A stretch of DNA of 64,000 nucleotides from Sanguibacter antarcticus (GTDB lineage Bacteria; Actinomycetota; Actinomycetes; Actinomycetales; Cellulomonadaceae), in the NCBI RefSeq assembly GCF_002564005.1, contig NZ_PDJG01000001.1, positions 2,232,001 to 2,296,000 on the forward strand. The letters are read 5' to 3'. The notes under the pieces are model-generated. The model was not told the DNA's origin and did not search any database. It saw only the letters and a program-made list of their open reading frames with translations. The translations under genes and the position numbers were made by a program. Positions within the stretch are counted from its first letter, which is position 1. Every line of letters starts with the position of its first letter. Below are positions 42,672 to 50,629 of this stretch, one piece after another.

Positions 42672-42806
42672 TCTGACGGACTGTCAGACGGCGCCGGAGA
42701 ACGTCGGACTCAGCACGCCTGCGGGCCTCCGGGGGTGCGCCCGCTGGCCCGACGCTCCGACCAGCGCGGATGCCCTCTGGAGTGTCAGAGGCACGATGCT
42801 AGGTTG
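42672..42806 (+). promoter_or_regulatory. Control region of the SWIM/MoxR/VWA operon
   Basis: TAGGTT (42801-42806) is a -10 box five bases before the GTG of the first gene, suggesting a leaderless mRNA. Further upstream TCTGAC, GGACT, GTCAGA (42672-42688) is a perfect inverted repeat, and the half-site GTCAGA recurs at 42784-42789. These may be regulator sites. Confidence 0.45.
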
Positions 42807-42811
42807 TCGCC

Positions 42812-44134
42812 GTGTCCACACCTTGGAGCCCTGAACAAGTGCTCGCGGCTGCGCCCGACGCCGCGTCCGTCGCCGCCGGGCGCAAGCTGTCGGGCCCCGC
42901 GTCCTGGACCGAGACCGGGGCGAGCGCGAGCCCGCACGCGCTCTGGGGACTGTGTGCGGGGTCCGGAAAGAAGCCGTACCAGACGGTGATCGACCTCGCG
43001 GTCCTCGCGTTCAAGTGCTCGTGCCCGAGCAGGAAGTTCCCGTGCAAGCACTCGCTCGGGCTCCTCCTCCTGTGGTCGAGCGGAAACGTGCCGGACCAGG
43101 ACGCACCGAGCGCCTTCGCGGCGGAGTGGCTCGAAGCACGCGAGAAGCGGGCCGCCCGCCCCGCCGCAGCAGCGGGGGCTGCGCCCGCGGACCCCGCGGC
43201 CGCGGCCCGGCGCACCGCGCGGCGGGGGGAGCAGGTCTCTGGCGGCGTCGCGGACCTCGACCTGTGGCTGCGTGACCAGGCCCGGACCGGGATCGCCGGC
43301 GCGGACCATGCCGGGTACGCCCTCACCGAGCCTGTCGCAGCGCGGCTCGTCGACGCTCAGGCGCCAGGCCTGGCCGGAGCCGTCCGGCAGCTGTCCAGCG
43401 TCGCCGCGTCCGGGGACGGCTGGCCCGGACGGCTGCTAGAAGACCTCGCGCTGCTCCGGCTCCTCGTCGTGGCCCACCAGCGGCTCGACTCGCTGCCCGC
43501 AGACCTCGCAGCCACGGTCCGCACCCGGATCGGCTACCCCGTCCGTACGGAGGATGTCCTCGCCGGTACACCGGTGCGCGACCGGTGGGACGTCCTCGCG
43601 CTGCACGACTCGACCGAGGACCGGCTCACGGTGCGGCGCGTCCACCTCCGGGGCACCGCGAGCGGACGCAGCGTGCTCGTCCTCTCGTTCGGCGCACGGC
43701 AGCAGCCGCTCGACGCGTCGCTCGTGCCGGGGACCACCCTCGACGCCGACGTCCACCTCTACCCCGGCTCGGCAGCGGTGCGGGGCATCGTCGGGACGCG
43801 GTACGCCGAGCCGGACATGCTCGGTGACGCTGCGGGCGAGAGCATCGCCGACGCGGTGGCCCGGTGGGCCGGCGCCGTCGCTGCCGACCCGTGGACCACG
43901 GAGATCCCCGTGGTGCTCGACGCCGTGACCGTCCTTCCGTCGGGCGGCGGGGGCACCACCGGCTGGCGGGTCGTCGACCCGTCAGGGACGACGTTGCCCG
44001 TGCACGCGAGCAGCAGCCTCTGGGTCCTGCTCGCTGTCGCGGGCGGTCACCCGGTGACCGTGGTCGGCGATCTCGAGCACCACACGCTGCACGCACGGTC
44101 GGTGCGTACCGTCGACGGGCTGGTGACACTGTGA
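42812..44134 (+). CDS. SWIM zinc-finger protein (YehQ-like N-terminal part)
   Basis: 440 residues from GTG. The SWIM motif is Cys69-x-Cys71-x6-Cys78-x-His80 in FKCSCPSRKFPCKH, a zinc-binding module for nucleic acid or protein contacts. A low-complexity Ala/Pro linker follows at 110-135, then a domain of about 300 residues with no recognised motif. It opens a five-gene operon in which every junction overlaps by 4 bases. In E. coli the SWIM protein YehQ lies in a comparable set (yehL, yehM, yehP, yehQ). Confidence 0.85.
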   Translation: MSTPWSPEQVLAAAPDAASVAAGRKLSGPASWTETGASASPHALWGLCAGSGKKPYQTVIDLAVLAFKCSCPSRKFPCKHSLGLLLLWSSGNVPDQDAPSAFAAEWLEAREKRAARPAAAAGAAPADPAAAARRTARRGEQVSGGVADLDLWLRDQARTGIAGADHAGYALTEPVAARLVDAQAPGLAGAVRQLSSVAASGDGWPGRLLEDLALLRLLVVAHQRLDSLPADLAATVRTRIGYPVRTEDVLAGTPVRDRWDVLALHDSTEDRLTVRRVHLRGTASGRSVLVLSFGARQQPLDASLVPGTTLDADVHLYPGSAAVRGIVGTRYAEPDMLGDAAGESIADAVARWAGAVAADPWTTEIPVVLDAVTVLPSGGGGTTGWRVVDPSGTTLPVHASSSLWVLLAVAGGHPVTVVGDLEHHTLHARSVRTVDGLVTL

Positions 44135-45855
44135 CTGTCGATCTGGACGACACCCTGGACCCGTGGGACGGCCTGGTCACGGCTGCCCTGCTCGGGGCGG
44201 CCCGACGCCCGGTGGACCCGTCCGCCCTTCCCGGGATCGTGGGCGCCGCCGGCGCACGTCTCCCCGAGACCGACCCTGCCGCCCGGCTGCTGGACGCCGC
44301 GGCGCTCATGACCGCGGCGCGCCGGGCAGCGCTCACCCCCAGCAGGCTCCCCGCGCCCACCACGGAGGACACGACCGGAGCCGACGACGCGACCGACGTG
44401 CGTCGCCGTCGCCCGGCGTCGATCTCGCCCGACGACGTGGCACCGCCGGTCTCCCGAGCGGCCGCACGACGCCTCGACGACCTCCTCTCCGGCTCCCGAC
44501 GTGACGCCGACGCCCTGCTCGTGCACTGGCTGCGCACCGCAGCCCAGCGCGGTCTGCGCGCACCCGCCGACCGGCTCCCGGCCCTGCTGGACTGGGCTGC
44601 GCGGACCACGACCCCCGCCGACCTGCTCCCCGTCCTCGGGGAACGTGGCCGCTGGCTCGCCACGCACCAGAAGCGCTGGCGGCGCACGCTCACCGTCGAC
44701 GACGGCCCCGGCACAGACAGCACGGACAGCACCGACGCCACCGACGGCGCCGACCTCTCCACCGACGCGCCCGTCCAGGCGCCGTCCGACCAGACCTGGA
44801 CGCACGGCACGCCCCACGAGCGCCAGGTGTGGTTCCGTGCGCTGCGCCGCGCCGCCCCGGAGAGCGCGCGCACGGCGCTGCTCGCTCTCGACTGGAACCG
44901 CCAGGACGGCGAGACCCGGCTCGCGCTCGTCGTAGCCCTCTCGCAGGGGCTCTGCCTCGCGGACGAGGAGGTCCTCGACCGGGCGCTCGCCGACCGGCGC
45001 AAGGACGTGCGCGCGGCAGCAGCTCGTCTGCTCGTCCAGATCCCTGACGGCCGGTTCCAGACGCAGGCCGCCGCCCGCGCTCTGGCGTGCATCCGGGTGG
45101 AGCACCCGCCGCGGCCGAGCCTCGTGGCGCGGCGTCCTGCTCCGCGCATCGTCGTGACGCTCCCTGACGCGGACGACCCCACGCCGTGGCCCGCCGGGAT
45201 GCTCGAGACGCCGCGCGGCACGGGCGCACGCGCCTGGTTGCTCAGGCACCTCGTCGAGGCGGCACCGGTGCGGCTCTGGTCGCAGCACACCGGCCTGACC
45301 CCAGACGCGCTCGTGGCGCTCCCCGTGGCCGACGACCTGTCCGAGGAAGTGCACCTGGGGTGGGCTCAGGCTGCCGTCCGGGACGGCGACCAGACCTGGG
45401 CGCGAGCGCTCGCACCGACGACCTTCGGCAGCCTCTACATCGATCTGCTGCGCCTGCTCCCGCTCGAGGAACGCGTAGCCCACGTCGTCGCGACGCTCGT
45501 CGCAGACACCGTCGACGGACCGAGCGGCCGGCCCGCGAAGGCTGGTTCCGACGAGCCGACCACCGGCCGTCGGCTCATCGACGCCAGCTCGGCGCTGGCG
45601 TCCGTCGCCGGACCGTGGCCTGCAGAGATGACCGCCGCCGTCGTGCGGTGGCTCGCGACGAGCCCCGCCCACGGCTGGGACCACGGGGCCATCACGCGCC
45701 AGGCAGCGAGAGACCTGCCCGACGACGCTGCGACCGAGGCACGCGTCCGCGCCGCCGCCGCGGACGTCCCCCCTGACAACCCCCGGCACCAGACGATCCT
45801 GTCTCTCGCCGACACCCTCCTGTACCGCCGCCAGATGATCGAGGAGCTCCAGTGA
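44131..45855 (+). CDS. DUF5691 protein of the MoxR/VWA operon
   Basis: 574 residues from the GTG that overlaps the previous stop (GTGA). Ala- and Leu-rich with many short amphipathic helices, as in HEAT-like solenoids. The N-terminus WDGLVTAALLGAARRP and the helices around residue 230-300 are typical of DUF5691 proteins, which occur beside SWIM, MoxR and VWA genes. No catalytic motif is visible. A scaffold role for the neighbouring proteins is a reasonable guess. Confidence 0.75.
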   Translation: MTVDLDDTLDPWDGLVTAALLGAARRPVDPSALPGIVGAAGARLPETDPAARLLDAAALMTAARRAALTPSRLPAPTTEDTTGADDATDVRRRRPASISPDDVAPPVSRAAARRLDDLLSGSRRDADALLVHWLRTAAQRGLRAPADRLPALLDWAARTTTPADLLPVLGERGRWLATHQKRWRRTLTVDDGPGTDSTDSTDATDGADLSTDAPVQAPSDQTWTHGTPHERQVWFRALRRAAPESARTALLALDWNRQDGETRLALVVALSQGLCLADEEVLDRALADRRKDVRAAAARLLVQIPDGRFQTQAAARALACIRVEHPPRPSLVARRPAPRIVVTLPDADDPTPWPAGMLETPRGTGARAWLLRHLVEAAPVRLWSQHTGLTPDALVALPVADDLSEEVHLGWAQAAVRDGDQTWARALAPTTFGSLYIDLLRLLPLEERVAHVVATLVADTVDGPSGRPAKAGSDEPTTGRRLIDASSALASVAGPWPAEMTAAVVRWLATSPAHGWDHGAITRQAARDLPDDAATEARVRAAAADVPPDNPRHQTILSLADTLLYRRQMIEELQ

Positions 45856-46949
45856 CCATCACCCCCGCCGTGCCTCTGCTGCGCCCGCACGCCGAGCAGG
45901 CGTTCGCCGACGAGCTCGGTGCGCTCGCCGCGCTCGACGACCGTCCGCGCCCGCCCGCCTGGTCTATGTCTCCGTGGGCGGTCGTGACCTACCTGCTCGG
46001 TGGGGTCCTGCCCGACGGGACCGTCATCACCCCCAAGTACGTCGGTCCGCGCCGGCTCATGGAGGTGGCCGTCGCCACGCTCGCGACCGACCGCGCCCTG
46101 CTGCTCCTCGGGGTCCCCGGCACCGCGAAGACCTGGGTGAGCGAGCACCTCGCCGCTGCCGTCTGCGGGGAGTCCACGCTCCTCGTCCAAGGGACGTCCG
46201 GCACCGCGGAAGAAGCGATCCGGTACGGGTGGAACTACGCGCGCCTGCTGGCGGAGGGCCCGACACCCGAGGCGCTCGTGCCCTCGCCCGTGCTCACGGC
46301 GATGCGGGACGCGAAGATCGCCCGCGTCGAAGAGCTCACGCGCATCCCGTCCGACGTCCAGGACGCGCTCATCACGATCCTGTCCGAGAAGTCCCTCCCG
46401 GTCCCTGAGCTCGGCACCGAGGTCCAGGCCGCAAAGGGCTTCAACGTCATCGCGACCGCCAACGACCGCGACCGCGGCGTCAACGAGCTCTCCTCGGCGC
46501 TGCGGCGACGGTTCAACACCGTGGTCCTCCCGCTGCCCGCGAGCGAGCAGGAAGAGGTCGACATCGTCACCCGGCGCGTCGAGCAGCTGGGCAGCGCGCT
46601 CGAGCTTCCCGAGGTCCCCGCCGCAGCCGAAGAGATCCGTCGGGTCGTGACCGTGTTCCGCGAGCTGCGCTCCGGTCGCACCCTCGACGGGCGCACGAGC
46701 CTCAAGACCCCCTCCGGGACGCTCTCGACCGCAGAGGCGATCTCCGTGGTGACCAACGGGCTCGCCCTCGCCGCGCACTTCGGCGACGGCGTGCTGCGGT
46801 CCGGCGACATCGCCGCCGGGATCATCGGTTCTGTCATCAAGGACCCCGTCGCGGACAAGGCCATCTGGTTCGAGTACCTCGAAGCCGTGGTCCGAGAGCG
46901 CGACGGCTGGAACGACTTCTACGGGGCGTGCCGAGAGATCAGCGGATGA
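45852..46949 (+). CDS. MoxR-family AAA+ ATPase (YehL-like)
   Basis: 365 residues from GTG (4-base overlap). Walker A GVPGTAKT at 87-94, sensor-1 Asn204 in ATANDRDRG, and arginine fingers RRR at 218-220. The Walker B position reads IARVEELTRI, with Glu160-Glu161 where most MoxR proteins have Asp-Glu. MoxR ATPases work as chaperones with VWA-domain proteins; the VWA partner is the last gene of this operon. Length matches E. coli YehL. Confidence 0.9.
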   Translation: MTITPAVPLLRPHAEQAFADELGALAALDDRPRPPAWSMSPWAVVTYLLGGVLPDGTVITPKYVGPRRLMEVAVATLATDRALLLLGVPGTAKTWVSEHLAAAVCGESTLLVQGTSGTAEEAIRYGWNYARLLAEGPTPEALVPSPVLTAMRDAKIARVEELTRIPSDVQDALITILSEKSLPVPELGTEVQAAKGFNVIATANDRDRGVNELSSALRRRFNTVVLPLPASEQEEVDIVTRRVEQLGSALELPEVPAAAEEIRRVVTVFRELRSGRTLDGRTSLKTPSGTLSTAEAISVVTNGLALAAHFGDGVLRSGDIAAGIIGSVIKDPVADKAIWFEYLEAVVRERDGWNDFYGACREISG

Positions 46950-49354
46950 CCGAGGTGCTCGCCGCGCCCGGGACCGACGCGGGCGCCGTCCCACCGCCCG
47001 GCGCCGACGAGACAGGCGCGCCGCAGGTCGAGGTCATGGGTGTGCGCCACCACGGACCAGGATCGGCCCGCGCGGTCGTCGCCGCGCTGGACCGGCTCCG
47101 CCCGGACGTGATCCTCGTCGAAGGTCCGGCAGACGCGGACCCGCTCGCGGCCCTCGGCGACCACCCGGGCCTGGTGCCTCCCGTCGCGCTGCTCGCCTAC
47201 GAGACCGGGTCCCCGTCCGTCGCGGCGTTCTGGCCCTTCGCGGTCTTCTCCCCCGAGTGGCAGGCTCTCGTCTGGGCCGCGGCGCACGACGTCCCGGTGC
47301 GGTTCTGCGACCTGCCGACCTCCGCGGTCCTCGGCGGACCGGGCCCGGACACTGCGGAGGCCGAGACCCCCCTCGGCGACGAGACGTCCCAGGAGCCCGC
47401 GCCGTCGGAGATCCCCGCGCCCTCCGAGGTGCCCTCTGCGCCCGAGGGCGCCGACCTCTCCGAGACCTCAGCCGCCGGCGTGCGTCGCGACCCGATCGCC
47501 GCTCTCGCCGCAGCAGCGGGCTACACCGACCCAGAGCGCTGGTGGGACGACGTCGTGGAAGCACGGCGTGACGCCCCGACACCCTTTCCCGTCCTCACCG
47601 AGGCGATGGCCGAGCTCCGGGCCGCTGCGGCGCCGCTCCCCGACGACGAGCAGCAGCGCGAGGACCGTCGTGAAGCCTTCATGCGTCAGACGCTGCGGGC
47701 CACGCTCAAGGGCGGCGCGCGACGCGTCGCGGTCGTGTGCGGCGCGTGGCACGCACCGGCGCTGGACGGCAAGCTCCCACCAGCGGCCACCGACGTCCGG
47801 ACGCTGCGCGGGCTCCCCCGCCGCGCCACCTCCGTGACCTGGGTCCCGTGGACCTCCTCCCGGCTCGCCCGCGCCTCCGGCTACGGCGCAGGCATCACCT
47901 CGCCGGGCTGGTACCACCACCTGTTCGTCAGCGACGACGACGTCGTCGCGCGATGGCTCGTCAAGGTCGCACGCGTCCTGCGCGAGCAGGACCTCCCCGT
48001 CTCCTCCGCGCACGTCATCGAAGCAGTCCGCCTCGCGGACGCGCTGGCGTCCATGCGCGGGCGGCCCGTCGCCGGGCTCGAGGAGGTGACCGAGGCGACG
48101 CGAGCGGTGCTGTGCGACGGCGACGACACGCTCCTGGGGCTCGTCACCGGCCGGCTCGTGGTCGGCGAGATCCTGGGAGAGGTACCAGACAGCGTCCCGA
48201 CCGTGCCTCTCGCCGCCGACCTGCGCACCGTCTCGCGCCGGCTGCGACTGCCGCAAGAAGCCCTCGAACGCACCGTCGAGCTCGACCTCCGCAAGCCCAA
48301 CGACCTCGCCCGGTCACGTCTCCTGCACCGCCTGACGCTCCTCGGCGTCGGATGGGGGACCCCGGCAGCCTCGCGGACCCGCAGCACCGGTACGTTCCGC
48401 GAGACCTGGTCGGTCCAGTGGCGTCCCGAGCTCTCGGTCTCGCTCGTCGAAGCGTCGCTGTGGGGCACGACGATCCTCGCCGCAGCCACCGCACGCGCGG
48501 TCGACACCGCCGTGCACGGGACACTGCCGCAGATCACCGCGCTCGTGGAGCAGTGCCTGCTCGCCGACCTCCCCGACGCGCTCGCCCCGCTGCTCGACCA
48601 GCTCGACGTGCGGGCCGCCCACGACGAGGACATCCTGCACCTCGCCGGTGCGCTGCCCCCGCTGGTGCGAGCCGAGCGGTACACCGACGTCCGCGGCACA
48701 GACACCGCCGGGCTGGCCCGGGTCGCTGACGCGCTCCTCGTCCGTCTGTGCGCCATGCTGCCGGCAGCCGTGACCAACCTCGACGACGACGCCGCCCGCG
48801 ACCTGCGCACCGCGCTCGACGCCGTCCACGAGGCTGTCGTCCTGCGCGACGTCGACGGTGCCGGGCGGGCCCTGTGGTTGCGCAGCCTGCTCGTCGTCGC
48901 CGACCGCTCAGAAGGCCCGCACCCGGTCTCCGGCGTGCTGGGCGGGCGAGCCACCCGCCTGCTCCGCGACGTCGGACACCTCACCCCTGCCGAGTCCGCG
49001 GTCCGGCTCGGGCGGTCGCTGTCCGTCGGCACCCCGGCGCCGACCAAGGCCGCCTGGATCGAAGGGTTCTTCGACGGTGGCGGGCTGCTCCTCGTCAACG
49101 ACCCCGAGCTCCTCGGTCTGCTCGACGCCTGGATCACCGACCTGACCGAGGACGCGTTCGTCGATGTCCTGCCCCTGCTCCGACGCACGTTCGGGACCTT
49201 CGCCGCACCGGAACGACGCGCCGTCGGCGACGCAGCCCGTCGACGCACAGGCTCCACGCCCGCCGTCCCGACGACGTTCCGTGCCCTCGACCTCGACGAG
49301 GCGCAGGTCGGCCCGGCGATCGCGACGGTCGCCCTCATCCTGGGAGCACCATGA
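46946..49354 (+). CDS. DUF5682 protein (YehM-like)
   Basis: 802 residues from ATG 46946, which overlaps the moxR stop by 4 bases; six extra in-frame residues upstream lack support. The N-terminus has the family signature MGVRHHGPGSARAV and VILVEGPADADPL (about residues 31-63). An acidic low-complexity stretch follows around 135-180. The large helical remainder has no known motif. It is the largest protein of the operon. The HH, Glu and Asp in the N-terminal signature could be catalytic, but this is untested. Confidence 0.82.
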   Translation: MTEVLAAPGTDAGAVPPPGADETGAPQVEVMGVRHHGPGSARAVVAALDRLRPDVILVEGPADADPLAALGDHPGLVPPVALLAYETGSPSVAAFWPFAVFSPEWQALVWAAAHDVPVRFCDLPTSAVLGGPGPDTAEAETPLGDETSQEPAPSEIPAPSEVPSAPEGADLSETSAAGVRRDPIAALAAAAGYTDPERWWDDVVEARRDAPTPFPVLTEAMAELRAAAAPLPDDEQQREDRREAFMRQTLRATLKGGARRVAVVCGAWHAPALDGKLPPAATDVRTLRGLPRRATSVTWVPWTSSRLARASGYGAGITSPGWYHHLFVSDDDVVARWLVKVARVLREQDLPVSSAHVIEAVRLADALASMRGRPVAGLEEVTEATRAVLCDGDDTLLGLVTGRLVVGEILGEVPDSVPTVPLAADLRTVSRRLRLPQEALERTVELDLRKPNDLARSRLLHRLTLLGVGWGTPAASRTRSTGTFRETWSVQWRPELSVSLVEASLWGTTILAAATARAVDTAVHGTLPQITALVEQCLLADLPDALAPLLDQLDVRAAHDEDILHLAGALPPLVRAERYTDVRGTDTAGLARVADALLVRLCAMLPAAVTNLDDDAARDLRTALDAVHEAVVLRDVDGAGRALWLRSLLVVADRSEGPHPVSGVLGGRATRLLRDVGHLTPAESAVRLGRSLSVGTPAPTKAAWIEGFFDGGGLLLVNDPELLGLLDAWITDLTEDAFVDVLPLLRRTFGTFAAPERRAVGDAARRRTGSTPAVPTTFRALDLDEAQVGPAIATVALILGAP

Positions 49355-50547
49355 CCATGCACACACAGCCCCTCGACGAGGCCGGACGCCGACGCCGGTG
49401 GCGCCTGCTCCTCGGCCAGGCAGGCGACCCCGGCTCCACGCTGACCGGTGCCGACGCCGCCATGGACGGCGCGCTCGCGGCGCTCTACGACGACGACTCC
49501 GCAGGGAGCGGCCGTAGTGCAGGCCGCGGCGGGCAGCGGTCGGCCGGGCTCGGCGGGTCTGCGCCTCGGGTGGCCCGCTGGCTGGGCGACATCCGGACAT
49601 ACTTTCCCAGCACCGTGGTCCAGGTCATGCAGCGCGACGCGGTCGATCGGCTCAACCTCACGCATCTGCTGCTCGAGCCCGAGCTGCTCGGTGCCGTCGA
49701 GCCCGACGTCCACCTCGTCGGGACGCTGCTCTCCCTCAACGGAGTCATGCCCGAGACCACCCGGGCCACCGCGCGCCAGGTGGTCGCGACCGTGGTGCGC
49801 CAGGTCGAGGAACGTATCGCTGCCGTCACCCGCTCCGCAGTGACCGGCGCGCTCAACAGGTCGGCACGGACCCACCGTCCTCGAGCGTCCGACATCGACT
49901 GGGGTGCCACCATCCTGGCCAACCTCAAGCACTACCTGCCCGAGTACCGCACGGTCGTCCCCGAGCGGCTCGTCGGCTACTCCCGTGGGCAGAACGTCGT
50001 CGCACGTGACGTGGTCCTCGCGATCGACCAGTCCGGCTCGATGGCGGAGTCCGTCGTGTACGCGTCGGTCTTCGGGTCGGTGCTCGCCTCGATGCGGTCG
50101 CTGCGGACCTCCGTCGTGGTGTTCGACACCGCCGTCGTCGACCTCACCGACCAGCTGGCCGATCCCGTCGACGTGCTCTTCGGCACACAGCTCGGCGGAG
50201 GCACCGACATCAACCGGGCGATCGCCTACAGCCAGGGCCTCATCACCCGACCGGCGGACTCCCTCTTCGTCCTCATCAGCGACCTCTACGAGGGCGGCGT
50301 GCGCGACGAGATGCTCCGTCGCGTGAGCGCCATGACCGCCGCCGGGGTCCAGGTCGTGGTGCTGCTCGCGCTGTCCGACAGCGGCGCGCCCTCCTACGAC
50401 CGGGAGAACGCCGCAGCCCTCGCGGCGCTCGGCATCCCCGCGTTCGCCTGCACACCGGACGCGTTCCCCGAGCTGCTCGCCGTCGCGCTCGCCAAGGGCG
50501 ACGTCGGCGCGTGGGCGCAGTCGGCGACCGGCGCACAGACGGGCTGA
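49351..50547 (+). CDS. VWA-domain protein (YehP-like)
   Basis: 398 residues from the ATG that overlaps the DUF5682 stop (ATGA). The C-terminal von Willebrand A domain (about residues 215-390) has the metal-site motif Asp226-x-Ser228-x-Ser230 (DQSGS) and the later GGTDINRA threonine. The N-terminal half is helical with a Gly/Ala/Ser linker at about 45-65. It should bind a ligand through Mg2+ and act with the MoxR ATPase. A 23-bp hairpin follows, closing the operon. Confidence 0.9.
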   Translation: MTMHTQPLDEAGRRRRWRLLLGQAGDPGSTLTGADAAMDGALAALYDDDSAGSGRSAGRGGQRSAGLGGSAPRVARWLGDIRTYFPSTVVQVMQRDAVDRLNLTHLLLEPELLGAVEPDVHLVGTLLSLNGVMPETTRATARQVVATVVRQVEERIAAVTRSAVTGALNRSARTHRPRASDIDWGATILANLKHYLPEYRTVVPERLVGYSRGQNVVARDVVLAIDQSGSMAESVVYASVFGSVLASMRSLRTSVVVFDTAVVDLTDQLADPVDVLFGTQLGGGTDINRAIAYSQGLITRPADSLFVLISDLYEGGVRDEMLRRVSAMTAAGVQVVVLLALSDSGAPSYDRENAAALAALGIPAFACTPDAFPELLAVALAKGDVGAWAQSATGAQTG

Positions 50548-50575
50548 GCCAGGCTGGGACGGGCTGAGACGGGCT

Positions 50576-50629
50576 GAGACGACGACCGGACGTGACCCAG
50601 GCAGTCGGGTCACGTCCGGTCGTCGTCTC
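50576..50629. terminator. Bidirectional 23-bp hairpin after the VWA operon
   Basis: A perfect 23-bp inverted repeat (50576-50598 and 50607-50629) with an 8-nt loop between convergent transcripts. It follows a short run of GACGGGCTGAG repeats (50538-50580). It should terminate both the VWA operon and the dehydrogenase gene. Confidence 0.8.

Follow-up and report, generated by a model that had tools for sequence, protein, structure and literature searches.

The stretch of DNA analysed here, which we call the window, comprises 64,000 nucleotides (nt) of Sanguibacter antarcticus and corresponds to positions 2232001-2296000 of a one-contig genome of 3.52 Mb, in which DUF5682 and DUF5691 each give a single match. 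At 42812-50547 of the window, open reading frames, start codons and Pfam matches place five adjacent genes on the + strand, encoding in order a SWIM zinc-finger protein, a DUF5691 protein, a MoxR AAA+ ATPase, a DUF5682 protein and a VWA_CoxE protein (Table 1). Each of the four junctions is a 4-base overlap, reading GTGA, GTGA, ATGA and ATGA in gene order. A sequence-only reading of this DNA had proposed a five-gene operon with four such overlaps, and the gene calls, the Pfam matches and the junctions bear it out. The SWIM domain was reportedly defined in a paper from 2002.

Table 1. Features of the five-gene locus and its upstream region, in window coordinates.
Feature	Position	Strand	Details
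Gene 1, SWIM zinc-finger protein	42812-44134	+	440 aa; PF04434 E=9.6e-5
SWIM CxCx6CxH motif	43016-43051 (residues 69-80)	+	each Cys/His retained in 72/74 rows
Gene 2, DUF5691 protein	44131-45855	+	574 aa; PF18944 E=2.8e-112; single open reading frame with gene 1 in 23/80 related loci
Gene 3, MoxR AAA+ ATPase, YehL-like	45852-46949	+	AAA_5 PF07728 E=1e-37
MoxR Walker A, GVPGTAKT	46110-46133	+	retained in relatives
MoxR E160-E161, Walker B position	within 45852-46949	+	found in 81/81 rows
Gene 4, DUF5682 protein, E. coli YehM family	46946-49354	+	802 aa; PF18934 E=4.7e-265; alpha/beta N-domain and HEAT-like solenoid (model)
DUF5682 N-domain, TIKI/TraB-like layout	47015-47875 (residues 24-310)	+	H35, E59, R242, G266, H269
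DUF5682 HEAT-like solenoid	48428-49255 (about residues 495-770)	+	VIA-align rows cover model residues 461-773, helical-repeat chains
Gene 5, VWA_CoxE protein	49351-50547	+	398 aa; PF05762 E=1.9e-51
VWA metal ion-dependent adhesion site (MIDAS), DxSxS (DQSGS)	50026-50040	+	D226, S228, S230 in 80/80 rows
Candidate P1/PafBC-like DNA-damage promoter	42782-42805	+	GTGTCAGAG-N9-TAGGTT, 6 nt before GTG start
Palindrome TCTGAC-N5-GTCAGA	42672-42688		outside the conserved unit; window only

The five genes form one conserved unit. A scan of genome contigs yielded at least 558 confirmed relatives, and the best 80 of these, all actinobacterial to judge by their titles, were taken as related loci. The complete set is present in 70 of the 80, with identical order and strand in 70 of 70; seven of the ten incomplete loci are broken by a contig end, and the other three (L014, L015, L061) lack only a DUF5691 gene detectable by single-sequence phmmer. 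Overlaps were scored, in loci where both genes were found, as an in-frame start codon overlapping the stop of the preceding gene. By this measure the SWIM-DUF5691 junction is an overlap in 39 and a fusion in 23 of 70 loci, and overlaps occur at DUF5691-MoxR in 67 of 74, at MoxR-DUF5682 in 53 of 79 and at DUF5682-VWA in 48 of 80. Scattering of the genes in relatives, which the sequence-only reading had named as what would tell against a single unit, was not seen. Among the 25 largest families of flanking genes, most are restricted to Nocardia or Kribbella and none touched more than 24 loci; a few generic families (judged by eye to be an ABC ATPase, a protein kinase and a transporter) are found close to loci from several genera, in variable position.

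The five-gene system is an accessory system. DUF5682 was found in one of six genomes from the genus, 17 of 61 in a draw from the family, 8 of 119 in a draw from the phylum, 23 of 72,556 plasmid-collection records (some of them chromosome-sized) and 1 of 50,697 phage records, that record being unverified. The gene order of the window also occurs on plasmid-collection records of Hymenobacter, Rhizobium, Methylosinus, Deinococcus and Methylobacterium, that is, in Alphaproteobacteria, Bacteroidota and Deinococcota, and the Hymenobacter record carries a SWIM-DUF5691 fusion. Several of these copies show peculiarities of their own. VWA matches are split over three frames on the Methylosinus plasmid (L094, 11163-12388) and SWIM matches over two frames on the plasmid of Rhizobium sp. 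Kim5 (L093, 5090-6501), in both cases as if decayed or mis-sequenced, and an extra small gene stands between MoxR and DUF5682 in Hymenobacter (L092, 8374-8985; 203 aa, without a Pfam match) and in Deinococcus (L095, 8774-9010; 78 aa). The phage record (L099, MT835988.1, an unverified 'Bacteriophage sp.' of faecal origin) holds MoxR, DUF5682 and VWA genes; its DUF5682 clusters with that of Fusobacterium, and it may be bacterial DNA.

Relatives of the unit fall into two types. In the family draw, 5 of the 17 genomes with DUF5682 have a match of the window's type (type I; 780-900 bits) and 14 have a match of a second type (type II; 326-365 bits where in one piece), with both types present in two genomes, G019 and G041. 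In the 14 type II regions MoxR, DUF5682 and VWA are consecutive. All 14 have a DUF4132-like open reading frame upstream in the same orientation, which directly precedes MoxR in 12, the two exceptions having distances of 222 and 1782 nt; in all 14, too, a CxC..CxH motif is found 198-231 nt beyond the VWA match. The gap of 1782 nt belongs to L131; in the other 13 loci it measures 24-222 nt. A profile of the DUF4132-like proteins finds YehI of E. coli at E=8.9e-46, and one of these proteins, run against Pfam, contains DUF4132 and HEAT repeats. The order in E. coli K-12 is yehI (DUF4132), yehK, yehL, yehM, yehP, yehQ, and since the type II regions carry the DUF4132-like frame upstream and the CxC..CxH motif after VWA, they share the E. 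coli order. E. coli yehLMPQ, for which we know of no established function, belongs to this sister type, DUF4132-MoxR-DUF5682-VWA-SWIM. The idea that YehQ is a SWIM-DUF5691 fusion was rejected, as YehQ gave no DUF5691 match.

In a midpoint-rooted DUF5682 tree (FastTree, 49 chosen rows), the 22 rows of type I (support 0.69) stand apart from a group of 25 rows (support 1.0) that unites type II with YehM-like proteobacterial rows. Both groups span phyla, with the gene neighbourhood among proteobacterial rows examined for E. coli only. From the gene sets of the two types and the tree, DUF5691 and DUF4132 therefore look like alternative partners of a common core. The row from Fusobacterium and that from the faecal contig branch next to type I. 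In Fusobacterium vincentii (L096, 4473-12443) a partial SWIM-profile match and an unmatched stretch are followed by MoxR, DUF5682 and VWA, possibly a third arrangement.

A DNA-damage promoter motif precedes the operon in many relatives. The consensus of the LexA/RecA-independent P1 promoter is given as tTGTCRgtg, 8 nt, TannnT, and activity of recA P1 is described as lost without pafBC (PMC5656591). In 145-nt regions upstream of the SWIM gene, the core of this pattern, TGTCR-N11-TAnnnT, is present in 31 of 73 type I loci. The controls gave 14 matches in 7300 random windows, 2 in 3650 shuffled sequences and none in 73 antisense regions; the looser form TGTCRG-N10-TA is found in 44 of the 73 and in 23 of 7300 random windows. 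The core occurs in 18 of 29 genus-level groups (genus g15 is counted twice, and g17 may be Cellulomonas) and in 5 of 1108 first-start regions of flanking open reading frames from 88 flank families, antisense frames included. Of the 14 type II loci, 12 also have it in a 750-nt window before the DUF4132 gene; the controls gave 1 match in 14 antisense windows and 66 in 2800 random windows. Stress was one of the options that the sequence-only reading had offered for the operon, and the P1/PafBC motif in relatives favours it.

The genome of S. antarcticus itself contains TGTCRGTG-N8-TAnnnT at four sites, with none for a reversed-pattern control, and the strict TTGTCRGTG-N8-TAnnnT at 0 sites. One site is 57 nt upstream of the earliest possible start codon of recA, whose product is 66% identical to E. 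coli RecA; another is 7 nt upstream of a gene that is radA-like by its domains; a third precedes an ABC transporter. The fourth, at G000:C1:2673495-2673516 (L144), is a good match with no recognisable gene behind it. This genome also has a WYL pair near tatC, one member of which carries the PafC helix-turn-helix domain. In the window, TAGGTT at 42800-42805 stands 6 nt before the GTG start of the SWIM gene, and in the 14 loci matching the fuller pattern, the window included, the distance from TAnnnT to the first in-frame start is 6-8 nt. This spacing fits leaderless transcription, in agreement with the leaderless promoter originally proposed; in Nocardia and others the promoter element lies further upstream.

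Several observations weigh against control by damage. PafBC is uncertain as the regulator because ClgR is also cited as recognising P1 (PMC5656591). The window's own copy, GTGTCAGAG-N9-TAGGTT, is degenerate: it matches 7 of 9 letters, has a 9-nt spacer and fails the strict core, being off the consensus by two lower-case letters and one spacer base. None of the 18 Nocardia, 8 Kribbella and 6 Amycolatopsis regions contains the core, nor do those of eight smaller groups, the window's included, and no comparable box was found upstream of seven non-actinobacterial operons, where the two CTG/CAG matches are at chance level and inside coding sequence. Near forms are present in many Nocardia, Kribbella and Amycolatopsis sequences, for example TTGTCGGTG-N8-TAGATA or TGTCGGTG-N8-CATGCT. 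We infer damage induction with these points in mind, and with most reserve for the copy in the window.

Other upstream elements were considered. L024, L026, L045, L048, L052, L071 and several Kribbella loci have TGTCGG(T) followed by a recurrent GGCATGCT or GGGATGCT and no TAnnnT, perhaps a variant -10 in the genera concerned. A search for SOS/LexA or radiation/desiccation response motif (RDRM) boxes at the seven non-actinobacterial operons and at five yeh genes of E. coli returned only three CTG/CAG-pattern matches, where random windows give 2-12%, and these boxes were rejected. A further point against comes from Streptomyces venezuelae, for which an initial search is described as having suggested that the PafBC motif of M. 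smegmatis is not conserved (PMC9380542). In favour of a damage link, D. radiodurans DRA0166, a DUF4132 protein, is reported to be controlled by DdrO and to rise with mitomycin C (PMC8533742). The palindrome TCTGAC-N5-GTCAGA, put forward by the sequence-only reading as a possible regulator site, is indeed present, but it was rejected as a conserved site: it occurs in 1 of 73 upstream regions, that of the window, and the other 72 have at least three mismatches.

The MoxR and VWA proteins retain Walker A and MIDAS, respectively, and the chaperone-partner pair of the sequence-only reading stands. The MoxR Walker B position reads R-x-E-E in all 81 rows, that of E. coli YehL included, and the aligned AAA domain of midasin has DE where MoxR has EE. 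The window's MoxR matches YehL at 230 bits and lies beside VWA, YehM-like (DUF5682) and SWIM genes, the context of the YehL subfamily; seven MoxR subfamilies have been named, YehL included (PMC3893208). MoxR/VWA pairs are described, in the part of the literature covered, as activators of particular target proteins, and principles of such pairs are set out in parts of PMC9976466 and PMC13036017.

One explanation of the operon that builds on these pairs is a machine for metal or cofactor insertion like NorQ/NorD or CoxD/CoxE, in which MoxR and VWA would twist a target open and DUF5682 would be a client or metallo-chaperone as opposed to a protease. NorQ is the only bacterial MoxR among the seven solved MoxR relatives whose sequences were found, midasin included; the VWA is of the CoxE type; and NorQD is reported to drive metal insertion (PMC13036017). 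However, no metalloenzyme recurs across genera in the 25 largest flank families, as judged by eye without a domain search, and a DNA-damage promoter is not what such a machine predicts. We regard metal insertion as unlikely, if the best of the alternatives to a damage-induced remodelling machine.

The DUF5682 protein is the component with a likely hydrolase site. An AlphaFold2 model (91 sequences; mean predicted local distance difference test 86.8, predicted template modelling score 0.84) shows an alpha/beta N-domain at about residues 24-310 and a HEAT-like C-terminus. The sequence-only reading had expected two large helical proteins; for DUF5682 this holds for the C-terminus and not for the N-domain. 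Of 23 positions tabulated, eleven (R34, H35, P38, E59, D122, E205, R225, R242, M246, G266 and H269) do not vary in any of the 199 rows, which cover both types and several phyla and are in part redundant (E. coli YehM appears more than once). The model places H35 after strand 27-32, E59 on strand 55-61, R242 on helix 233-255 and H269 after strand 260-265, and these four residues reproduce the TIKI/TraB layout of a His after strand 1, a Glu on strand 2, an Arg and a second His. For the TIKI enzyme RRSP, the catalytic His-to-Glu distance is given as 28 and the distance from a conserved Arg to the second His as 29 (PMC6254334); the corresponding distances in the window's DUF5682 are 24 and 27. When residues 24-310 were aligned by hhalign to eight TraB-family proteins, the R..M..GxxH stretch fell in register (P=0.0011), with 0 of 136 decoy families reaching the score; four partner families gave P of 0.2-0.74 against the same domain.

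Membership of the TIKI/TraB superfamily is a different matter. The first Glu of the TIKI 2His/2Glu set (E-x-H) is absent, position 33 being I or V in 199 of 199 rows, inserts stretch the R-to-H distance in several type II rows, and the hhalign similarity is local, covering 35 columns of the second motif only at a probability of 21%, with a failed global alignment. Foldseek with the whole model gave no hit at E<=0.001, solenoids filling the list. Since the first Glu is absent and the similarity is local, we do not assign DUF5682 to this superfamily and suggest only that it works like a TIKI hydrolase. E. coli YbaP, of the TraB family, has Ser at the position of the first Glu. VIA-align on the whole model returned helical-repeat rows that do not inform the N-domain, PDB sequences similar to DUF5682 gave none below E=0.14, other Pfam families in 13 DUF5682 members gave none below E=0.011, and the TraB and ChaN families have no match in the S. 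antarcticus genome.

The missing Glu and the weak, local profile similarity would also suit an N-domain that is a ligand binder or a structural relic, leaving the machine a pure ATP-driven remodeller. ChaN, for comparison, binds haem. Eleven residues kept in all 199 rows, across two types and several phyla, look instead like a maintained active site, and we consider a binder or relic improbable, ranking it after metal insertion.

Taken together, we give about an even chance that the operon encodes a remodelling machine built on MoxR and VWA, induced by DNA damage and equipped with a TIKI-like hydrolase. We hypothesize that in Actinomycetota DNA damage would activate the operon through a P1/PafBC-type, LexA-independent promoter, and that expression with coupled translation would yield five subunits forming one machine. 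The MoxR AAA+ ring and the CoxE-type VWA adaptor would bind and remodel a protein target, with SWIM and DUF5691 (DUF4132 in the sister type) acting as a zinc-finger/helical module that may recognise this target or its nucleic acid, and the putative TIKI/TraB-like hydrolase of DUF5682, on its HEAT-like scaffold, would process what the ring delivers. If the operon is switched on from a DNA-damage promoter, the machine would therefore act in the DNA-damage response. More tentatively, and as a possibility well short of an even chance, it could represent an unrecognised damage-induced, ATP-driven protein-processing machine, a MoxR/VWA unfoldase feeding a TIKI-type hydrolase (DUF5682) under SWIM/HEAT targeting, distinct from Clp, Lon, FtsH and the Pup-proteasome and existing in two old types, the second including E. 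coli yehI-yehLMPQ.

A system for phage defence or other conflict that DNA damage arms, with a logic akin to the vWA-MoxR-VMAP ternary systems, is doubtful and the least probable of the explanations weighed here: the patchy distribution, the presence on plasmids and the co-occurrence of both types in two genomes would suit it, but the five window proteins and nine others gave no PADLOC-DB 2.0.0 match at E<=0.001 (the best being a weak P-loop match to IetA at E=0.008, with none for the nine), no VMAP or effector domain exceeds the Pfam cut-off in the five proteins, none of the viral contigs (10 pattern matches) was confirmed to carry DUF5682, and the flanking genes with a Pfam match in the window are not defence genes. 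The phage-related conflict raised by the sequence-only reading found no backing.

A damage-induced remodelling machine would have consequences beyond this locus. The YehL branch, which has no assigned role in the part of the literature covered, gains P1/PafBC as a candidate regulator in actinomycetes, residues H35/E59/R242/H269 of DUF5682 as a candidate active site, and an evolutionary frame of two types, and the function of yehLMPQ-type operons becomes a directly testable question. If the proposal is true, several phyla would possess an additional DNA-damage effector machine. No paper on DUF5682 or DUF5691 was found in the literature searched.

Eight open reading frames neighbouring the operon were checked with Pfam. 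Four gave matches, all on the opposite strand to the operon: DinB_2/mycothiol-S-transferase upstream, and short-chain dehydrogenase, alcohol dehydrogenase and IclR downstream. None appears functionally connected to the operon. A 910-aa open frame at 47881-50613 (-), antisense to DUF5682 and VWA, is most probably a by-product of the high G+C content of the coding sequence. The database protein matching the SWIM protein has 431 aa, which corresponds to a start nine codons later than in our 440-aa reading, from another gene caller. NCBIfam matches of the window proteins to MadB and GvpN are far under the cut-off.

Compared with known systems, the operon shares with the vWA-MoxR-VMAP ternary conflict systems a MoxR, a vWA and further components per operon (PMC7159879), and differs in its lack of a VMAP or effector domain, the bpMoxR model likewise staying under the cut-off; CRISPR-linked vWA-MoxR systems have been described as well (PMC10910872). 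Like NorQ/NorD and CoxD/CoxE, it combines a MoxR AAA+ protein and a MIDAS-bearing VWA in one operon, whereas it has no recognised target enzyme and has SWIM, DUF5691 and DUF5682 in addition. With the TIKI/TraB/Ere hydrolases, DUF5682 has in common the His after strand 1, the Glu on strand 2, the Arg on a helix and the His after a later strand, at similar spacing; it departs from them in lacking the first Glu and in its large HEAT-like C-terminus and AAA+/VWA partners. The closest comparison is the one drawn by the sequence-only reading, to E. coli yehLMPQ. The parallel stops where the sister type begins: the E. coli SWIM gene lies at the 3′ end and encodes two CxC..CxH motifs, DUF4132 (YehI) stands upstream, with yehK between, in place of any DUF5691 match, and the DUF5682 protein falls in a separate clade. 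It holds for the core, as MoxR, DUF5682 (YehM, E=2.4e-98), VWA_CoxE and SWIM genes stand together in both.

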